A stretch of 41,844 bases of DNA. Source: an uncultured Faecalitalea sp. GTDB lineage: Bacteria > Bacillota_I > Bacilli_A > Erysipelotrichales > Erysipelotrichaceae. Position numbers and translations under genes: made by a program. Every line of letters begins with the position of its first letter. Within the stretch, counting starts at the first letter, position 1. Positions 2,956 through 34,196 of this stretch are shown here, piece by piece. Location: NCBI GenBank assembly GCA_946408025.1, contig CAMJQJ010000008.1, positions 1-41,844 on the forward strand, in the 5' to 3' direction. Under the pieces are notes generated by a model. That model worked only from the letters and a program-made list of their open reading frames with translations, did no database searches and was not told the origin of the DNA.

Positions 2956-2984
2956 TTGTAAAGTGAATGCGATTCATGTAGAAT
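2956..2984 (+). promoter_or_regulatory. Putative sigmaA-type promoter of the purine operon
   Basis: TTGTAA-17 nt-TAGAAT. Confidence 0.55.
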
Positions 2985-3029
2985 AAATGTGCAGAAGGAA
3001 TTCTGGTGCTGTTTTTGGAGGTCTTACTT

Positions 3030-3077
3030 ATGGTCTTAAGAAGATTTACAAAATTGAAAGAACACAGGCTGTTTTAA
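3030..3077 (+). CDS. Putative 15-aa leader peptide MVLRRFTKLKEHRLF upstream of purE
   Basis: GGAGG (3017-3021) 8 nt before ATG; stop TAA (3075-3077) overlaps the first bases of the terminator stem at 3076. Confidence 0.45.
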   Translation: MVLRRFTKLKEHRLF

Positions 3078-3105
3078 GCGTGCCCTTGATAGGTGCGCTT
3101 TTTTT
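3076..3105 (+). terminator. Intrinsic terminator/attenuator in the purE leader
   Basis: AAGCGTGCC-CTTGATA-GGTGCGCTT (9 bp incl. two G-U) followed by seven Ts, directly upstream of the purE RBS (gggagg). Confidence 0.75.
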
Positions 3106-3125
3106 AATGCAAAGGGAGGATAAAA

Positions 3126-3611
3126 ATGGAAACTAAAGTGTTGGTAGTAATGGGTTCAAGAAGTGATTTGCCCGCAATGGAAGGTTGTATGAAACAACTG
3201 GATGATTTCAAGATTGGTTATGAAGTACGTGTATTAAGCGCACATCGTACACCAAATGAAGTGATCAAATTAAGTTCAGAAGCAAAAGATCGTGGGATCA
3301 AAGTTATTATTGCGGCTGCTGGAGGCGCTGCTCATTTAGCTGGTGTTATCGCTAGTTCGACACCACTTCCAGTTATTGGTATTCCAATGCAGACCAGTGC
3401 ATTAGGTGGAATGGATTCATTGTTGTCAACGGTTCAAATGCCTCAAGGAGTTCCAGTGGCGACTGTAGCAATTGGAAAAGCTGGCGCAAGAAATGCAGCA
3501 ATCTTAGCTTGTCAGATGATCGGATTGGCCGATGAATCTGTTCAAAAAACAATCGAAGATTTTAAAAAAGAACAGGCCGAAAATGTATTGGCACAGTCTA
3601 TTGTAGAATAA
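3126..3611 (+). CDS. purE: 5-(carboxyamino)imidazole ribonucleotide mutase
   Basis: VMGSRSDLPAM, SAHRTP, AAAGGAAHLAGV motifs. Confidence 0.96.
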   Translation: METKVLVVMGSRSDLPAMEGCMKQLDDFKIGYEVRVLSAHRTPNEVIKLSSEAKDRGIKVIIAAAGGAAHLAGVIASSTPLPVIGIPMQTSALGGMDSLLSTVQMPQGVPVATVAIGKAGARNAAILACQMIGLADESVQKTIEDFKKEQAENVLAQSIVE

Positions 3612-3622
3612 AGGAGAAAAAG

Positions 3623-6600
3623 ATGGATACACGTATTTTTGTTCAGAAAAAAGAACAGTTCCAAGTTGAAAGCGAGTCGCTGGGTACTGAATTAAGACAG
3701 TCTCTATCACTTTCTGATGATTTTAAAGTCTCTTTATATAATATTTATGACATTTTTAACGCAGATGAAAACGATATTCAACTTTTGAAAAAGAATGTCT
3801 GCAGTGAAGTGGTAACGGATGTTGTATATGATTCAATTGATCTAAATGGTAAAAAATATCTTGCTTATGAATATTTACCAGGGCAATATGATCAAAGAGC
3901 TGACAGTGCTATGCAATGTTTAATGTTATTGAATAATAAGCAGACAGTTCGTATTCATTCAGGAACATTATTGGTGTTCGATGGACAAGTTTCAGAAGAA
4001 GATCTAGAAAAAATAACAGGTTATATTGTTAATCCCGTAGAAGCTAGAGTAAAAGATTTAAGCGTATTAGAAGATGATCAGGATGTTGAAGTAGCACCAG
4101 TTCCTATCTTGAATGGATTCATCGATATGAACAAAGAAGAATTAAATGCTCTTCGTGAAAAAGAAGGATTGGCCATGTCACAAGAGGATATCGAATTTGT
4201 TCAGGATTATTTTAAAAATCAGGAAAAACGTGATTGTACGATGACTGAATTAAAGGTGTTGGATACATATTGGTCTGATCACTGTCGTCATACAACGTTT
4301 GAAACAGTATTGGAATCTATTGATTTTAAGCTAGATACGTTAAAAGAACAGATCCAAGATTCTTATGAAAAATATCTTGCATTACGTAATGAAGTGCATG
4401 GTGGAAAAAAAGAACAGACTTTGATGGATATGGCAACGATTGCTGGTAAATATCTTCGTAAACAAGGTAAATTGGATGATATGGAAGTCAGTGATGAAAT
4501 TAATGCCTGCTCTGTAGAAATCAAAGTAGATGTTGATGGAAAAGATGAAGACTGGTTGTTGATGTTTAAGAATGAAACGCATAACCATCCAACTGAAATT
4601 GAACCGTTTGGTGGTGCCAGTACATGTATTGGTGGAGCCATTCGAGATCCATTATCAGGAAGAAGCTATGTTTATCAGGCGATGCGTGTTACTGGAGCTG
4701 GAGATATCACAAAACCAATTTCGGAAACGATGGAACATAAACTCCCACAGTCAAAAATTTCTAAAACAGCTGCACATGGCTACTCAAGCTATGGTAACCA
4801 GATTGGATTAGCAACTACTTTTGTCGAAGAAATCTATGATGAAGGTTATGTTGCCAAGAGAATGGAAGTTGGAGCAGTTGTTGGAGCTGCGCCTAAATCT
4901 CATGTAAAAAGAGAAAAACCACAGCCAGGAGATATCATTGTTTTGATTGGTGGAGCAACTGGTCGTGATGGAATCGGAGGCGCAACCGGTTCAAGTAAGG
5001 AACATAATGAAACAAGTCTTGAAAAGTGTTCAAGTGAAGTACAAAAAGGAAATGCTTTGATTGAACGTAAATTGCAGCGTTTATTTAGAAATCCTGCATG
5101 TACGAAATTAATCAAAAAGGCTAATGACTTTGGTGCTGGTGGTGTCAGTGTTGCTGTTGGTGAATTGGCCGATGGATTGGATATTGATCTAGATGCTGTA
5201 CCAGTAAAATATCAAGGTCTTGATGGCACAGAGCTTGCAATCAGTGAATCACAAGAGCGTATGGCTTGTTGTATTGAGGCAAAAGATTTTGAGAAATTTA
5301 AAGCAGAAGCATATAAAGAAAATCTAGAAGCTATCAAAGTGGCTACTGTTACGGATACAAATCGTCTCGTGATGAAGTTTAGAGGCGAAACAATTGTCGA
5401 TATGTCCCGCGCGTTTTTAGATACAAATGGAGTAAGAGCTCATCAGGCTGTTGAAATTTGTGAAAGTGAATATGATGAAAAGCCATTTGATAAAAAAGAT
5501 ACAAATCTTGTGGAAGTTTTACATGATCCAAATGTGGCTTGTCAGATTGGTTTAGCAGAGATGTTTGATGCCTCTATTGGAAAAAGTACAGTATTGATGC
5601 CTTTTGGAGGAAAATATCAATTAACTCCTGAAGAAGGTTCTGTTCAAAAATTACCAGTATTTGGAATGACAAATACATGTTCAACCATGACATATGGATA
5701 TGATCCAAAACTAGCAAAATACTCTCCATATTTAGGAGCTAGTTATTCAGTAGTTGAAGCTTTAGCTAAAATAACAGCTTTAGGTGCTGATTATTCAACA
5801 TGTCGTTTGTCAAACCAAGAATACTTTGAAAGAGTTGGAAACGATCCTAAAAAATGGGGAAATCCGATGCAGGCTTTATTAGGTCTTGTCGATGCACAGA
5901 TTGCTTTTGAAACACCAAGCATTGGTGGAAAAGACAGTATGTCTGGAACATATAAAGATATTCATGTTCCACCTACATTGATCACATTTGCGATCACAAC
6001 TCAAAAAACAGATTCTGTTGTCAGTGCTTCTTTCAAAAAAGCAGGTAACTATGTTTACTTAGTCAAACATGAAGCATTGGCTGATCATATGCCAAATTAT
6101 GAACAGTTAAAAGATAATTTTAAAGCTGTCCATGAAAAAATGCAGGAAGGTAAGATCGTTGCGGCAAGTGCAGTTAAATTTGGTGGCATCGGATATGCGA
6201 TTGCCAAGATGGCATTTGGTAATAAATTAGGTGTTGCGATCCAAAGCGATGAAGATGTTTATGGATTTAATACAGGCTCATTGATCGTAGAGGCAACAGA
6301 AAGTATCATGGACCCTCGTTTCACATTGTTAGGAATCTTGAATGAAGAAGACAAGATCGTTATCAATGATGAGGTGGTTACGATTGAAGATGCTTTAATA
6401 GCTTGGAAAGAAAGATATGATGATATCTATCCGATGAATGTTGATCTAGGAAAAGAAACTTTGGATACACCTCTAACAGTAAAAGAACCAGTTTATTCTA
6501 AAGTGAAAGTGGAAAAACCAGTAGTCGTAATTCCAATCTTCCCTGGACAAAACTGTGAATATGATACAACGGCAAAATTTGAACGTGCTGGTGCTGAAGT

Positions 6601-7315
6601 GCATCAAGTTGTATTTAATAACTTGACTGTAGAAAATATCAAGGCAAGCATAGATACATTGGCAGATGAAATTTCTAAGGCTCAAATTTTGATGATTGTT
6701 GGTGGATTCAGTTCAGGAGATGAACCAGATGGATCTGGTAAATTCATTGCCAATGTACTTCGCAATCCAAAAATTTCAACAGCTATTGATACGATGCGTG
6801 CTAATGATGGATTGATATTAGGTATTTGTAATGGATTCCAGGCATTGATCAAATCAGGTTTGTTGCCTTATGGTGATATTGCAGGATTAAATGAAGAGAA
6901 TCCTACATTATTTAGAAACAATATAAATCGTCACGTAAGTCATATTGCTCGTACTCGTGTTACATCTAATGCATCACCTTGGTTCATGTCTATGACACCA
7001 GGAGAAATGCATTCGGTTGCGATGTCTCATGGAGAAGGTAAGTTTGTCGCATCAAAAGAAGTGTTAGATGAACTTGTTAAGAATGGTCAGGTTGCAACAC
7101 AGTATGTCAATGAAGAGGGTGTTCCAACGATGGATGGCTTAGATAATATCAATGGTTCAAGCATAGCCATTGAAGGTATCTTCTCTAAAGATGGTAAGAT
7201 CTTTGGAAAGATGGGACATAGTGAGCGATATGAAGAAGGCTTGATGCAAAATATTTACGGAAATAAAGACCAGAATATTTTCGAAAATGGTGTTCGTTAT
7301 TTCACGCATAAATAA
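3623..7315 (+). CDS. purL: Phosphoribosylformylglycinamidine synthase, single-chain PurL-PurQ type
   Basis: 1230 aa; TYWSDHCRHTTF, MFKNETHNHPTEIEPFGGA, C-terminal glutaminase GICNGFQ and HSVAMSHGEG. Confidence 0.96.
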   Translation: MDTRIFVQKKEQFQVESESLGTELRQSLSLSDDFKVSLYNIYDIFNADENDIQLLKKNVCSEVVTDVVYDSIDLNGKKYLAYEYLPGQYDQRADSAMQCLMLLNNKQTVRIHSGTLLVFDGQVSEEDLEKITGYIVNPVEARVKDLSVLEDDQDVEVAPVPILNGFIDMNKEELNALREKEGLAMSQEDIEFVQDYFKNQEKRDCTMTELKVLDTYWSDHCRHTTFETVLESIDFKLDTLKEQIQDSYEKYLALRNEVHGGKKEQTLMDMATIAGKYLRKQGKLDDMEVSDEINACSVEIKVDVDGKDEDWLLMFKNETHNHPTEIEPFGGASTCIGGAIRDPLSGRSYVYQAMRVTGAGDITKPISETMEHKLPQSKISKTAAHGYSSYGNQIGLATTFVEEIYDEGYVAKRMEVGAVVGAAPKSHVKREKPQPGDIIVLIGGATGRDGIGGATGSSKEHNETSLEKCSSEVQKGNALIERKLQRLFRNPACTKLIKKANDFGAGGVSVAVGELADGLDIDLDAVPVKYQGLDGTELAISESQERMACCIEAKDFEKFKAEAYKENLEAIKVATVTDTNRLVMKFRGETIVDMSRAFLDTNGVRAHQAVEICESEYDEKPFDKKDTNLVEVLHDPNVACQIGLAEMFDASIGKSTVLMPFGGKYQLTPEEGSVQKLPVFGMTNTCSTMTYGYDPKLAKYSPYLGASYSVVEALAKITALGADYSTCRLSNQEYFERVGNDPKKWGNPMQALLGLVDAQIAFETPSIGGKDSMSGTYKDIHVPPTLITFAITTQKTDSVVSASFKKAGNYVYLVKHEALADHMPNYEQLKDNFKAVHEKMQEGKIVAASAVKFGGIGYAIAKMAFGNKLGVAIQSDEDVYGFNTGSLIVEATESIMDPRFTLLGILNEEDKIVINDEVVTIEDALIAWKERYDDIYPMNVDLGKETLDTPLTVKEPVYSKVKVEKPVVVIPIFPGQNCEYDTTAKFERAGAEVHQVVFNNLTVENIKASIDTLADEISKAQILMIVGGFSSGDEPDGSGKFIANVLRNPKISTAIDTMRANDGLILGICNGFQALIKSGLLPYGDIAGLNEENPTLFRNNINRHVSHIARTRVTSNASPWFMSMTPGEMHSVAMSHGEGKFVASKEVLDELVKNGQVATQYVNEEGVPTMDGLDNINGSSIAIEGIFSKDGKIFGKMGHSERYEEGLMQNIYGNKDQNIFENGVRYFTHK

Positions 7316-7326
7316 AGGAGAAAAAA

Positions 7327-8352
7327 ATGGATTACAAAAAAGCGGGTGTAGATATTGAAGCTGGTTATAAATCAGTGGAATTAATGAAAAAACACGTAAA
7401 AGAAACGATGCGTCCTGAAGTTTTAGGAGGACTTGGTGGGTTTGCCGGTGCCTTTGATCTTTCAAAGATCAAAGGTATGGAAGAACCTGTTCTGTTATCC
7501 GGAACCGATGGATGTGGAACAAAGGTGAAATTGGCTTTTGTTTTGGATAAACATGATACGATTGGTATCGATGCAGTTGCAATGTGTGTGAATGATATTG
7601 CGTGTGCTGGAGGAGAACCACTATTCTTCCTAGATTACATCGCATGTGGTAAAAACTATCCAGAAAAGATTGCGACGATTGTAAGTGGTGTTGCTGAAGG
7701 ATGTAAACAAAGCGAATGCGCACTAATTGGTGGAGAAACAGCTGAGCATCCAGGCTTAATGCCAGTAGATGAATACGACCTTGCTGGATTTGCGGTAGGT
7801 GTCGTAGACAAAAAAGATATAATTGATGGTTCAAATATCAAGGAAGGCGATGTGTTAGTTGGTATCGCATCTAGCGGTGTTCATTCAAATGGATTTAGTT
7901 TAGTTCGTTCTGTATTTGACATGACAGAAGAATCCTTGAATACGTATTATGATGAGCTGAAAAAGACATTAGGAGAAGCATTGATCGAACCAACACGCAT
8001 CTATGTTAAAGCTTTAAAAAATGTAAAAGATGCTGGTGTTACAATCAAGGGGTGCAGCCATATTACAGGTGGAGGTTTCTATGAAAATGTTCCTAGAATG
8101 CTTCCAGAAAACGCAAAAGCTATTATTAAGAAAGACAGTTATCCAGTTCCTGCAATATTTGATTTGATTGCCAAGAATGGAAATGTAGAAGAAACGATGA
8201 TGTATAACACATTTAATATGGGGTTAGGAATGGTCATTGCATTAGATCCAAAAGATGTGGATACAGCCATGGAGGCAATTCAGAAAGCTGGAGACACTTG
8301 TTATATCGTAGGAAATATTGTTGAAGGTCAAAAGGGTGTCGAATTATGTTAA
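7327..8352 (+). CDS. purM: Phosphoribosylformylglycinamidine cyclo-ligase
   Basis: DYKKAGVDIEAG, LLSGTDGCGTKVKLA, GGETAEHPG, HITGGGFYENVPR. Confidence 0.97.
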   Translation: MDYKKAGVDIEAGYKSVELMKKHVKETMRPEVLGGLGGFAGAFDLSKIKGMEEPVLLSGTDGCGTKVKLAFVLDKHDTIGIDAVAMCVNDIACAGGEPLFFLDYIACGKNYPEKIATIVSGVAEGCKQSECALIGGETAEHPGLMPVDEYDLAGFAVGVVDKKDIIDGSNIKEGDVLVGIASSGVHSNGFSLVRSVFDMTEESLNTYYDELKKTLGEALIEPTRIYVKALKNVKDAGVTIKGCSHITGGGFYENVPRMLPENAKAIIKKDSYPVPAIFDLIAKNGNVEETMMYNTFNMGLGMVIALDPKDVDTAMEAIQKAGDTCYIVGNIVEGQKGVELC

Positions 8353-8936
8353 GACTGGCCGTACTGATTTCTGGAGGAGGTACGGATCTTCAATCCATCA
8401 TTGATGAACATAAAAAAGGAAATATCAACTGTGAGATTGCACTTGTCGTCAGCAATCGCCAGAGTGCCTATGGACTTGAAAGAGCGAAACAGGCGGGTAT
8501 TCCAACGGCATGTATAAAAGATCAAAAAGAACTTTTGAAAAAACTTCAGGATGAAAAGATTGATTTTATCGTTTTAGCCGGTTATCTTGCAATCTTACAG
8601 GAAGATTTGATTAAAGCGTATCCAAATAAGATCATCAATATTCATCCATCCTTGATTCCTTCTTTCTGTGGGCCAGGTATGTATGGACTTCATGTTCATG
8701 AAGCTGCCTTAGCCAAGGGAGTAAAGGTAAGTGGAGCTACGGTACATTTTGTTTCTGAAGAAGTAGATGGTGGGCCAATCATTTATCAAGAAGCTGTATC
8801 GATTGCTGATTTGGATACAGCTGAAGCAATTCAAAAAAGAGTTCTTGAGATAGAGCATAAGATCTTACCTATGGTAGTTCGTTATTATTGTGAAGACAAG
8901 ATCAAAATAGAGAAAGGAAGAGTGCATATTCTATGA
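8346..8936 (+). CDS. purN: Phosphoribosylglycinamide formyltransferase
   Basis: LISGGGTDLQSI, INIHPSLIPSF, GATVHFVSEEVDGGPII; overlaps purM. Confidence 0.96.
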   Translation: MLRLAVLISGGGTDLQSIIDEHKKGNINCEIALVVSNRQSAYGLERAKQAGIPTACIKDQKELLKKLQDEKIDFIVLAGYLAILQEDLIKAYPNKIINIHPSLIPSFCGPGMYGLHVHEAALAKGVKVSGATVHFVSEEVDGGPIIYQEAVSIADLDTAEAIQKRVLEIEHKILPMVVRYYCEDKIKIEKGRVHIL

Positions 8937-10465
8937 AAAGAGCATTAGTCAGTGTTTCAGACAAGACGGGTCTAGTGGAGTTTGTTCAAGGGTTAGTTGA
9001 CTGTGGTTATGAGATCATTTCTACGGGAGGAACTAAAAAAGCTTTGGAAAATGCTGGAATCCAGACAATTGGAATTAGTGAAGTAACAGGATTTCCAGAA
9101 ATTATGGATGGTCGTGTAAAGACACTTCATCCAAAAGTACATGGAGCTCTTTTGTGTGTTAGAGAGAATCCAGATCATGTTAGACAGTTAAAAGAGCTAG
9201 GAATCGAATATATCGATCTAGTTTGTGTAAACCTCTATCCATTTAAAGAAACTGTACAAAAAGAAGGCGTAAGTCATGAAGAGATAATCGAGAATATCGA
9301 TATTGGCGGTCCAAGTATGTTACGTAGTGCTTCTAAGAATTATCAGAGCATTCCTGTTCTTTGTGATCCAAAAGATTATGAGAAAGTATTGAATGAAATC
9401 AAAGAAAATGGTGAGACAACGTTAGAAACACGTGAACACCTTGCCGCAAAGGTATTCCGCCATACAGCTCGATATGATGCAATGATTGCAGATTATTTGA
9501 CAAAACGCACTCATGAAGAATTTCCTGAAAGTTTGACGATTACATTTGATAAAGTACAGGATCTACGTTATGGAGAAAACCCTCATCAAAAAGCTGCTTT
9601 CTATAAAGGTATGAATCCTAAGTACTCTTTGGCAAATGCAACACAGCTTCATGGTAAAGAACTTTCTTACAACAATATCCAAGATGGTAATGCAGCTATC
9701 GAGGTCTTGAAAGATTTTGAAGGGCAGTATGCTGCTGTTGGTTTAAAACATATGAATCCATGTGGAGTGGGTATTGGTGAAAATATTGAAGCTGCTTGGG
9801 ATAAAGCATATGAAGCAGATCCAGTATCTATCTTTGGTGGTATTGTTGCCTTAAATGACAAAGTTGAAAAAGGATTAGCTGAAAAATTATCTAAAATTTT
9901 CCTTGAAATCATTATTGCTCCAGATTTTAGTGATGAAGCATTAGAAATTTTAACTCGAAAGAAAAATATACGTTTGATGAAACTAGATACAACATTGTCT
10001 ACATCTACTGCATTGAAATATACGAACGTCAATGATGGACTGTTGGTTCAGGAAATGGATACACACGTAGTAAAAGAAGAAGATTTACGTTGTGTGACAA
10101 ATCGTAAACCAACAAAAGAAGAAATCGAACAACTACTATTTGGTTGGAAAGTGGTTAAGCATGTTAAATCAAATGCTATCGTTCTTGTAAAAGACAACAT
10201 GACGATTGGAGTAGGTGCTGGACAAATGAATCGTGTTGGAGCTGCTAAGATTGCGATTGAACAAGCACAGGAAAAAGCTAAAGGTTCTGTTATGGCAAGC
10301 GATGCTTTCTTCCCAATGCCAGATACAGTTCAAGAAGCGATTAAGGCAGGAGTTACAGCAATTATCCAACCAGGAGGTTCTATTAAAGATCAACTTTCTA
10401 TTGACGAGTGTAATGAACATGGTATCGCAATGGTGTTTACCGGAATTCGTCACTTTAAACATTAA
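8933..10465 (+). CDS. purH: Bifunctional AICAR transformylase/IMP cyclohydrolase
   Basis: ALVSVSDKTGLVEF, DGRVKTLHPKVHG, LRYGENPHQKAAFY, KHMNPCGVG; ATGA overlap with purN. Confidence 0.97.
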   Translation: MKRALVSVSDKTGLVEFVQGLVDCGYEIISTGGTKKALENAGIQTIGISEVTGFPEIMDGRVKTLHPKVHGALLCVRENPDHVRQLKELGIEYIDLVCVNLYPFKETVQKEGVSHEEIIENIDIGGPSMLRSASKNYQSIPVLCDPKDYEKVLNEIKENGETTLETREHLAAKVFRHTARYDAMIADYLTKRTHEEFPESLTITFDKVQDLRYGENPHQKAAFYKGMNPKYSLANATQLHGKELSYNNIQDGNAAIEVLKDFEGQYAAVGLKHMNPCGVGIGENIEAAWDKAYEADPVSIFGGIVALNDKVEKGLAEKLSKIFLEIIIAPDFSDEALEILTRKKNIRLMKLDTTLSTSTALKYTNVNDGLLVQEMDTHVVKEEDLRCVTNRKPTKEEIEQLLFGWKVVKHVKSNAIVLVKDNMTIGVGAGQMNRVGAAKIAIEQAQEKAKGSVMASDAFFPMPDTVQEAIKAGVTAIIQPGGSIKDQLSIDECNEHGIAMVFTGIRHFKH

Positions 10466-10547: not shown

Positions 10548-11039
10548 ATGAAAGAATTACAAGCAATTGATAAAGTGATGGAAGCATACTATGAAATTAC
10601 AGGGTTGCATAGTTACTTTATCCAAAGCAAAAACGATATTACAGACAGTGCAAAAGAAAAAAACTTCTTCTGTAAATGTTTGAAAACAAGTGCTTCTGCT
10701 TTAAAACAGTGTGATGAATGTACAGTAGAAAATTATTCAGCGGCTCTAGAATCCAAAAAAGTACAGACATATTCTTGCCATGCAGGATTGGTAAAGTGGT
10801 CTGTTCCAGTTCGGATTAACGAAGTTGCTGGAGTAATTATCTCAGAGGGAGTTATTTCAAAACGTCAGGTAGAAGAAAGCGAAGAATGGATTAATTATTT
10901 AGCTGAGAAATATAATGTTTCTAAACCGATTCTAATGAAAAATTATTCTAATGTTCGTGAAATGACGGAACAACAAGTAGATCAGGCTATTGCACTGTTA
11001 GAAAGTTTGGTCGCATACTATAAGACAGAAGTAAAATAA
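10548..11039 (+). CDS. Stand-alone PocR-type ligand-binding domain protein
   Basis: 163 aa; Cys-rich FFCKCLKTSASALKQCDECT...YSCHAGLVKWSVPV typical of the PocR domain; no DNA-binding domain follows. Confidence 0.7.
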   Translation: MKELQAIDKVMEAYYEITGLHSYFIQSKNDITDSAKEKNFFCKCLKTSASALKQCDECTVENYSAALESKKVQTYSCHAGLVKWSVPVRINEVAGVIISEGVISKRQVEESEEWINYLAEKYNVSKPILMKNYSNVREMTEQQVDQAIALLESLVAYYKTEVK

Positions 11040-23985: not shown

Positions 23986-25317
23986 TTATATCATATATGG
24001 TGTGGCGAAATATACAACAAATATGATCATCAACACCCAAACAGTAGGGTGAATTTCTTTTGCTTTACCTGCAGCGATCATCGCAACTGTATAAACGATG
24101 AAACCACAAGCGATACCATTAGAGATAGAGTACATTAAGATCATCATGGCAATTGTGATGAAACCACTCGCTGCAAAAATCATATCATCCCAGTCAATTC
24201 CTTTAAGCTGCTGAGCCATCATGATTCCTACAACGATTAGAGCTGGAGCTGTGACAGCATTTGTGACAGCACTCAAAATAATTGGAGAAATGAAAATTGA
24301 TAATAAGAAACAAATACCTGTAGTAACAGCTGTAAGACCAGTGCGACCTCCAACTCCTACTCCTGAGCTTGATTCAACAAAACTTGTTACAGTACTAGTA
24401 CCAATTGCGGCACCAAATACAGTTCCGATTGCATCAGCAACTAGAGCCTTTTCAGCATTTTCTAATTCGCCGTCTTTGTTTACTAAGCCGATGCGGTTAC
24501 CGATTGCAACCAATGTGCCGGCTGTATCAAAGAAGTCAACGAATAAGAAAGAGAAAATTGCCACAAAAGCATTGAAAGGATTCGCAAATAATTCTCCAAA
24601 ACCATTCATGAATGCACCAGCCGCTTTCATTTCAAAGCTAGTTGTAAATAAAGTTTCAGGTAATGTAGGCATTCCTTCAATATGACCAACACTTCCGGCA
24701 ATTATACCAATAATGGCTGTGATAACCATTCCTACAAATACTGCAGCAGGAATTTTTTTGATTACTAACGCAATAGTGATCAATAGCCCAAAAACAGCTA
24801 ATAATACAGTAGGGTCTGCTAGATTACCAATCCCTACAAACGTAGATTCGTTTGCAACGATGATTCCAGCATTCTTAAGTCCTACAAAGGCAATGAAGAA
24901 GCCGATACCAGAACCAATTGCAAGTTTAAGCTGAACAGGAATTGCGTTGATGATTGCTTTACGAATTCCAGTAACGGAAATAACCACAAAGATAACACCT
25001 GAAATAAATACAGCGCATAGTGCAGCAGACCAGCTGAATCCCATAGCTCCGCAAATTGTATATGAGAATAAAGCGTTAACACCCATACCAGCTGCTAGAG
25101 CTACTGGATAGTTTGCAACAAGTCCCATTACAATAGAAGCAAAAGCAGCAGAAATTGCTGTAGCTAAGAAAACAGAAGCAACATCCATTCCTGCATCTGA
25201 CAAGATGTTTGGATTAACACCCAAGATATAAGCCATTGCAAGGAAGGTCGTGATTCCGGCAATGATTTCTGTCTTGATGGTTGTCTGTTTTTCTTTTAGT
25301 TTAAAAAGTTTTTCCAT
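23986..25317 (-). CDS. NCS2/AzgA-type purine (guanine/hypoxanthine) permease
   Basis: MEKLFKLKEKQTTIKTEIIAGITTFLAMAYILGVNP; start trimmed to 25317, which has an aagaggagag RBS. Confidence 0.9.
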   Translation of the reverse strand: MEKLFKLKEKQTTIKTEIIAGITTFLAMAYILGVNPNILSDAGMDVASVFLATAISAAFASIVMGLVANYPVALAAGMGVNALFSYTICGAMGFSWSAALCAVFISGVIFVVISVTGIRKAIINAIPVQLKLAIGSGIGFFIAFVGLKNAGIIVANESTFVGIGNLADPTVLLAVFGLLITIALVIKKIPAAVFVGMVITAIIGIIAGSVGHIEGMPTLPETLFTTSFEMKAAGAFMNGFGELFANPFNAFVAIFSFLFVDFFDTAGTLVAIGNRIGLVNKDGELENAEKALVADAIGTVFGAAIGTSTVTSFVESSSGVGVGGRTGLTAVTTGICFLLSIFISPIILSAVTNAVTAPALIVVGIMMAQQLKGIDWDDMIFAASGFITIAMMILMYSISNGIACGFIVYTVAMIAAGKAKEIHPTVWVLMIIFVVYFATPYMI

Positions 25318-25340
25318 ATATTCTCTCCTCTTGTCTATTA

Positions 25341-25376
25341 AAAAAGACCATCTCATTGTACACAATGAAACGGTCT
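25341..25376 (-). terminator. Terminator downstream of addA
   Basis: Minus strand AGACCGTTTCATTGT-GT-ACAATGAGATGGTCTTTTTT. Confidence 0.85.
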
Positions 25377-25391
25377 GTTTCAAATGATTTA

Positions 25392-33485: not shown

Positions 33486-34196
33486 CTATATTCTTAAAGT
33501 TGTTTCTAATGCTAGCTTGATCATAGTATCAAAACTTTTTTCTCTTTGTTTGCTGGTGAGGTTTTCATCGTGAACAAAAGAATCAGAAATGGTACAGATG
33601 CAGGCTGCTTTTTTGTTTAAAACATGGGCGTTATGAAACAAGGCAAAGCTTTCCATTTCCACAGCTGCGCATCCGTTTTTTATTGCGATGTCTTGTGCTT
33701 GATTTGTTTCGTGATAAAATACGTCACTGGAATGAAGACGACATTCTTTTAAATTGATGTTCATGATCTTGGCAGTATCTTTGATTGACTGGTTTGTCCA
33801 AGGAGTTGGATATTGAACGTCGCTCCCTTCACCAGATTGAACTTTGGCAAATGTAGATTCAGACCAGCAGGATGTAGCTAATAATACATCCATGGCGTGA
33901 AGTTCTGGGATATATCCTCCACATGAGCCAATGCGTATGATGGTATCTACATCATAGAATTTAAATAGTTCATAGGAATAGATACCAATGCTTGGCATAC
34001 CCATTCCAGATGCCATAACAGAAATTTTCTTGTTTTTGTATGTTCCTGTATAGCCTAAAACGTTGCGTACGGTGTTAAAACAAATAGGATTATCTAAATA
34101 ATTTTCAGCGATGAATTTTGCGCGTAAAGGATCACCGGGCATTAAGACGATCTTGGCAATTTCACCATTCTGTGCATTATTGTGTGGTGTGCTCAT
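33486..34196 (-). CDS. deoD: Purine-nucleoside phosphorylase
   Basis: MPGDPLRAKFIAENYL, GMGMPSIGIYSYEL, IRIGSCGG, AVEMESFALF. Confidence 0.96.
   Translation of the reverse strand: MSTPHNNAQNGEIAKIVLMPGDPLRAKFIAENYLDNPICFNTVRNVLGYTGTYKNKKISVMASGMGMPSIGIYSYELFKFYDVDTIIRIGSCGGYIPELHAMDVLLATSCWSESTFAKVQSGEGSDVQYPTPWTNQSIKDTAKIMNINLKECRLHSSDVFYHETNQAQDIAIKNGCAAVEMESFALFHNAHVLNKKAACICTISDSFVHDENLTSKQREKSFDTMIKLALETTLRI

Follow-up and report, generated by a model that had tools for sequence, protein, structure and literature searches.

A leader open reading frame with a self-occluded start precedes purE in Faecalitalea and its relatives: a probable translation-dependent attenuator of the purine operon

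In Firmicutes, PurR and riboswitches for guanine or PRPP are known to control purine operons. What controls the purine operon in Faecalitalea? We analysed a window of 41,844 nucleotides, a whole contig (C8) of an uncultured Faecalitalea sp. whose genome is closely related to that of Faecalitalea cylindroides; the PurE proteins of the window and of F. cylindroides ATCC 27803 (L001) are 99% identical. The operon starts at position 3126 and has the gene order purE-purL-purM-purN-purH. A classical PurR, combining a PuR_N domain with a phosphoribosyltransferase, was not found in the source genome, which is 79% complete; PuR_N matches were weak, lay inside far larger open frames (586-723 aa) and were rejected. 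The purD, purA and guaB genes of the same genome were examined and lack a comparable leader.

Features of the purE leader are collected in Table 1. An earlier, sequence-only reading had described a 15-codon open reading frame (ORF) preceded by GGAGG at a spacing of 8 nt, with its UAA on the first bases of a terminator followed by the purE ribosome-binding site, and this description is right base for base. The same reading recognised no riboswitch core, in agreement with our Rfam search, in which no family, known purine, PRPP, ZTP, THF and other aptamers included, matched the window leader; below-threshold matches were judged meaningless. The promoter that it predicted is plausible as a consensus match but is not above chance, 3.4 such matches being expected by chance in that stretch. 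Similar -10 boxes occur at the same place ahead of the Shine-Dalgarno (SD) sequence in relatives, and transcription would start near 2990. The terminator hairpin has 9 bp (5 G-C) and a 7-nt loop followed by a T-run; it is the single terminator-like hairpin found in 1 kb, where shuffled sequences gave 0.4 +/- 0.6.

Table 1. Features of the purE leader and operon in the window.
Feature	Position	Strand	Evidence or remark
Predicted sigma-A-type promoter: -35 TTGTAA (2956), 17-nt spacer, -10 TAGAAT (2984)	2956..2984	+	consensus match only
P1 5' strand UUUUG	3013..3017	+	covaries with 3049-3053
Leader-ORF SD GGAGG, within P1, internal loop and P2 base	3017..3021	+	invariant in MAFFT alignment A3
P2 5' strand GUCUU-a-CUUA, bulged A 3026	3021..3030	+	covarying pairs
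Hexaloop UGGUCU; holds leader start codon together with A3030	3031..3036	+	nearly invariant while stems vary
P2 3' strand UAAGAAGAU	3037..3045	+	covarying pairs
P1 3' strand CAAAA, within leader ORF	3049..3053	+	covarying pairs; SD-side/ORF-interior complementarity test
Leader ORF MVLRRFTKLKEHRLF, 15 codons + UAA (TAA 3075-3077), ATG 3030-3032	3030..3077	+	frame comparison in relatives
U-run directly 5' of terminator stem	3072..3075	+	compared across leaders
Intrinsic terminator, stem 3076-3100 + U tail	3076..3106	+	present in almost all relatives
purE SD AAGGGAGG	3112..3119	+	sequence reading
purE (ATG at 3126)	3126..3611	+	NCBIfam TIGR01162, 199 bits
purL, purM, purN, purH (remaining controlled operon)	3623..10465	+	NCBIfam TIGR01857, TIGR00878, TIGR00639, NF002049

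Several other candidates were discarded. We claim no operator, because the imperfect palindrome TGAATGCGATTCA between the -35 and -10 boxes is lost in F. cylindroides ATCC 27803. The GGUGC at 3007-3011, considered as a pairing partner of the terminator arm, is UUGC in the same strain. The leader also has a 19-nt match within feoB of the same genome, which is attributed to chance.

Elsewhere in the window, positions 1-47 are Illumina adapter sequence (CACCGAGATCTACACTCTTTCCCTACACGACGCTCTTCCGATCT), an assembly contamination at the contig start, and the gene that follows (from 102), encoding thioredoxin reductase, is truncated at its 5' end. A 297-aa protein without NCBIfam match is encoded on the minus strand (1871-2764), divergently from purE, and the purE promoter lies in the intergenic region between the two genes. 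Just 3' of purH, a small protein (10548-11039) bears a weak likeness to the N-terminal portion of PocR (34 bits, cut-off 500); it is possibly a ligand-binding domain protein belonging to the purE operon. Two genes on the minus strand were assigned by eye: 23986-25383, for which NCBIfam gave no match at the E cut-off, to an NCS2/AzgA-type purine permease, and 33486-34196 to a purine nucleoside phosphorylase of the DeoD type.

A covariance model search revealed that a 48-nt region (3009-3056) recurs ahead of purE in about 20 genera of Erysipelotrichaceae. Clear matches were each time located 5' of purE, and none was found at other sites among 298 genomes of the class; weak matches (L138, L140-L143) were judged false by their context. 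The shared region folds into two stems, P1 and P2; the internal loop contains the SD, and the AUG is found at the hexaloop, UGGUCU. The sequence-only reading had the ORF and terminator in place but overlooked this conserved hairpin. Pairing is maintained in 97.6% of the cells of the MAFFT alignment, compared with 43-54% when the partner strand is slid. Two-sided changes occur at 4 pairs in this alignment and at 7 of the 14 pairs in a larger, model-fitted one. For instance, the P1 strands UUUUG/CAAAA become UAUAG/CUAUA or UUGUUG/CAACAA, P2 varies from CUUA/UAAG to GUUA/UAAC, and a further group of genera features an ACGAA/UUCGU stem with the same UGGUCU loop. In three leaders (L003, L144 and L145) the loop sequence is altered and the AUG is kept at the same place. 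The conserved unpaired bases are those of the SD and of AUG-GUC only; the 3' internal loop is free to vary.

Changes in the stems also change the encoded peptide. Residues 4 and 5 differ among leaders (MVLRR, MVLTR, MVLSR, MVMTF, MVFRS), and pairing is preserved. All 27 hairpin-bearing leaders, which are related and do not represent 27 independent trials, keep the AUG frame open until 8 nt or less from the terminator; the other two frames are open that far in 3 and 10 of them, and shuffles gave 8.5. All motif-bearing leaders with a terminator keep the ORF. No amino acid or codon is shared or enriched among 54 leader peptides, and glycine, which seemed to be avoided, occurs at the shuffled level. 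Because the peptides are not conserved, the Arg/Lys/His content to which the sequence-only reading had drawn attention carries no signal. On these comparisons, selection appears to act on the leader ORF as a frame and not as a peptide. SD, start codon and in-frame stop are all conserved, as is the location before a single gene, in the manner typical of upstream ORFs (uORFs) acting in cis. The site of the stop is not rigid: some ORFs end 10-20 nt 5' of the stem (L155, L179, L184), and others run through the terminator (L009, L012, L013, L113). In L009 and L013 the ORF remains open as far as the purE start codon, which suggests translational coupling to purE.

Sister genera lacking the UGGUCU motif have the same module, an SD and a short ORF with its stop at a terminator before purE, and the peptides are unrelated. 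Such an ORF is associated with 44 of the 67 non-riboswitch terminators, compared with 2.5 expected from shuffles under strict settings. This count is conservative because the 67 include a few clade-B riboswitch terminators, likewise devoid of the ORF; cases missed include ORFs extending past the terminator. As a control within the same loci, none of the 24 terminators of purine riboswitches has such an ORF. About 7 of 64 leaders appear to lack the module (L166, L176, L195, L198, L199, L204 and probably L183). The open frames and this excess of stops overlapping terminators support the leader-peptide attenuator of the sequence-only reading, refined here to a family-wide trait that often adjoins a purine riboswitch. 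Two findings that the reading had named as contrary to it, an Rfam aptamer in the leader and related leaders retaining the terminator but not the ORF, were looked for, and neither turned up in the window leader or among the motif-bearing leaders, respectively.

The purine riboswitch (RF00167) occurs only in sister genera and not in the clade of the window. It lies 5' of the module in one set of genera and 3' in another, where riboswitches beyond the scanned loci were identified by core sequence only; on whichever side, the module is always ahead of purE. The reversed order, in which ORF and terminator precede riboswitch, second terminator and purE, is found in L161, L162, L167, L168, L170, L171, L173-L182, L184 and L200-L203. 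Three leaders (L194, L196, L197), in which no purine riboswitch was seen before purE, feature longer ORFs of 33-38 codons that end close to the terminator; these suggest the same idea at pyrBI-like length. In a neighbouring family (f2, L186-L193), purE is internal to an operon and has no such leader. The gene before it, whose product ends in ..GKIVGLF, is presumably fhs (formate-tetrahydrofolate ligase), in which case purine and one-carbon genes share one operon.

When motif-less leaders were folded, the SD side paired with the interior of its own ORF, as in UGAAAGUGA/UCAUUUUCA, UUGAAGGGGA/UUUCUCUUUCAA, GUUACG/CGUAAC and UUUGUAG/CUACAAG. In 37 non-redundant leaders this pairing averages -10.3 kcal/mol, compared with -8.1 +/- 0.4 when partners are permuted (0/5000 permutations), and in the 24 motif-less leaders to -11.0 versus -8.7 kcal/mol (0/5000). 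The same test around the start of purE itself showed no effect (-5.96 versus -6.10). Restricted to the motif clade, the test is uninformative (305 of 5000 permutations reached the native pairing) because members of this clade share strands; the clade's case is carried by the covariation counts. Since native SD-side pairing exceeds permuted pairing and pairing at the purE start does not, the feature common to these leaders is a predicted hairpin that hides the leader start and is closed by a strand inside the leader ORF, the UGGUCU motif being one clade's version.

The layout of the predicted attenuator is established by sequence comparison. How it works is a further step: the purE leader probably acts as a translation-dependent transcription attenuator, in which leader translation masks the terminator and lets RNA polymerase pass. 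As the leader RNA emerges, P1 and P2 would enclose the SD and AUG of the 15-codon ORF in a hairpin, the 3' strand of which is part of the ORF. Should this folding precede the arrival of a ribosome, the leader would stay untranslated, the terminator would fold and transcription would stop. A ribosome that loads would unwind the hairpin and rest at the UAA, its footprint covering the 5' arm of the terminator, so that the terminator could not fold and polymerase would proceed into purE. Translation would hinge on whether a ribosome binds while the second P1 strand is still to be synthesized, or on a factor holding the hairpin closed, and the peptide itself would have no information content. Such an attenuator would act alone in the clade of the window and beside a purine riboswitch elsewhere.

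The direction, translation being the ON state, is one that we infer from the lack of an antiterminator together with published E. coli data. Across 52 leaders, the 5' arm of the terminator pairs upstream no better than in shuffled sequences (mean z ~0); because it has only chance-level partners, the terminator would fold unless a ribosome is present. In E. coli, a stop codon placed 5 bp before a terminator lowers termination from ~90% to <10%, an effect abolished without translation (PMC4824070). In B. subtilis, RNA polymerase moves faster than the ribosome, and a terminator directly behind a stop codon is the usual arrangement (PMC7858274), so that proximity of stop and terminator alone need not mean masking. 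Such uncoupling would make the case for masking weaker unless coupling is re-established by pausing, as it is in vmlR (PMC9226507). A run of 4-7 U before the stem is present in 19 of 25 motif-bearing leaders versus 6 of 27 others, and may be a pause site; it is the one feature seen here that could correspond to the pause region of pyrBI-type attenuators, which responds to the end-product nucleotide.

What the attenuator would sense can be suggested only tentatively. The speed of RNA polymerase, reduced at low ATP or GTP as pyrBI responds to UTP, is one possibility. Translation-initiation capacity (fMet-tRNA/10-formyl-THF, or ppGpp acting on IF2) is a somewhat doubtful candidate, and a ligand or protein holding the hairpin closed is doubtful to a similar degree. 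The sequence does not favour ATP/GTP sensing, because the purine-rich leader ORF that was sought was not found (A 35, G 15.5%). Speculatively, the leader could be a kinetic purine sensor devoid of aptamer and repressor: low ATP/GTP would slow polymerase, and the ribosome would take the SD before the second strand is made. The race between co-transcriptional folding and ribosome loading could, as speculatively, read the purine pool, alone in the clade of the window and as a second input beside the riboswitch in sister genera.

The conserved hairpin could instead be a new riboswitch aptamer or protein site whose ligand locks the SD and AUG, with ORF and terminator serving as expression platform. 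The near-fixed UGGUCU, retained while stems vary and even in genera with ACGAA/UUCGU stems, points this way, as does clade-wide conservation before purE only. We nevertheless regard it as rather unlikely: the unpaired bases outside the SD and AUG-GUC are not conserved, L003, L144 and L145 have other loops, and motif-less genera have unrelated hairpins at the same place.

Less probable still is that the ORF is an independent small gene, or a relic, with its own terminator, purE being reached by readthrough only. Stops near terminators are ordinary in Firmicutes (PMC7858274), but here position and frame are conserved and peptides are not, four ORFs continue through the terminator, and the module precedes or follows the riboswitch depending on the genus, yet always lies ahead of purE. 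Attenuation of the trp/his type, in which a ribosome stalled at control codons switches an antiterminator, would fit the length of the leader ORF, which is typical, and the terminator behind it. We consider it very improbable, as the 54 peptides show neither a run of control codons nor a shared or enriched amino acid, and the chance-level pairing of the 5' arm leaves no antiterminator mutually exclusive with the terminator. Translation-dependent masking of the terminator is the reading that we retain.

The pyrBI attenuator of E. coli senses UTP through a 44-codon leader ORF, has no antiterminator and does not depend on peptide sequence. The purE leader resembles it in an ORF that would be translated up to or into the terminator, in the lack of an antiterminator, in the unimportance of the peptide and in preceding a nucleotide-biosynthesis operon; it differs in its length of about 15 codons, in serving a purine operon and in a start that lies in a hairpin with its own interior. 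In Streptococcus, the fthC uORF motif combines SD, AUG, uORF and terminator without an amino-acid code, and its authors suggest initiator-tRNA supply as the signal (PMC11109978). The purE leader shares this organization, and fthC is a one-carbon gene, but gene, genus and stems differ, and the fthC SD and AUG lie between two hairpins (PMC11109978). The vmlR leader of B. subtilis is likewise a Firmicute uORF inside a hairpin, with a terminator and control through uORF translation, but its uORF has 3 codons, and it relies on stalling by antibiotics and on an anti-antiterminator (PMC9226507); no antiterminator was found in the purE leader. Guanine and tandem guanine-PRPP riboswitches precede pur operons (PMC5912903). 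Here, too, de novo purine genes would be under RNA control, and a purine aptamer lies beside the module in sister genera; unlike the tandem, the window has no aptamer, and the second input would be a translated ORF instead of a PRPP aptamer.

The sequence-only reading had called a translated leader with its stop on the terminator unusual for pur genes. Our search of open-access papers turned up no report of a leader-ORF attenuator ahead of pur genes, and this layout has apparently not been described for them. uORF-dependent attenuation as a kind is already known from pyrBI, fthC and vmlR; the new elements are the operon that it serves, the self-occlusion of the start and the way in which the module pairs interchangeably with a purine riboswitch.

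The whole family places a putatively translated leader ORF with a self-occluded start before its purine operon, whether or not a purine riboswitch is present as well. If translation sets readthrough, purine synthesis would be tied to the loading of ribosomes, to the speed of polymerase or to the supply of initiator tRNA. The attenuator would require close coupling of transcription and translation in a phylum thought to be largely uncoupled, and the question of coupling is directly testable because of this requirement.
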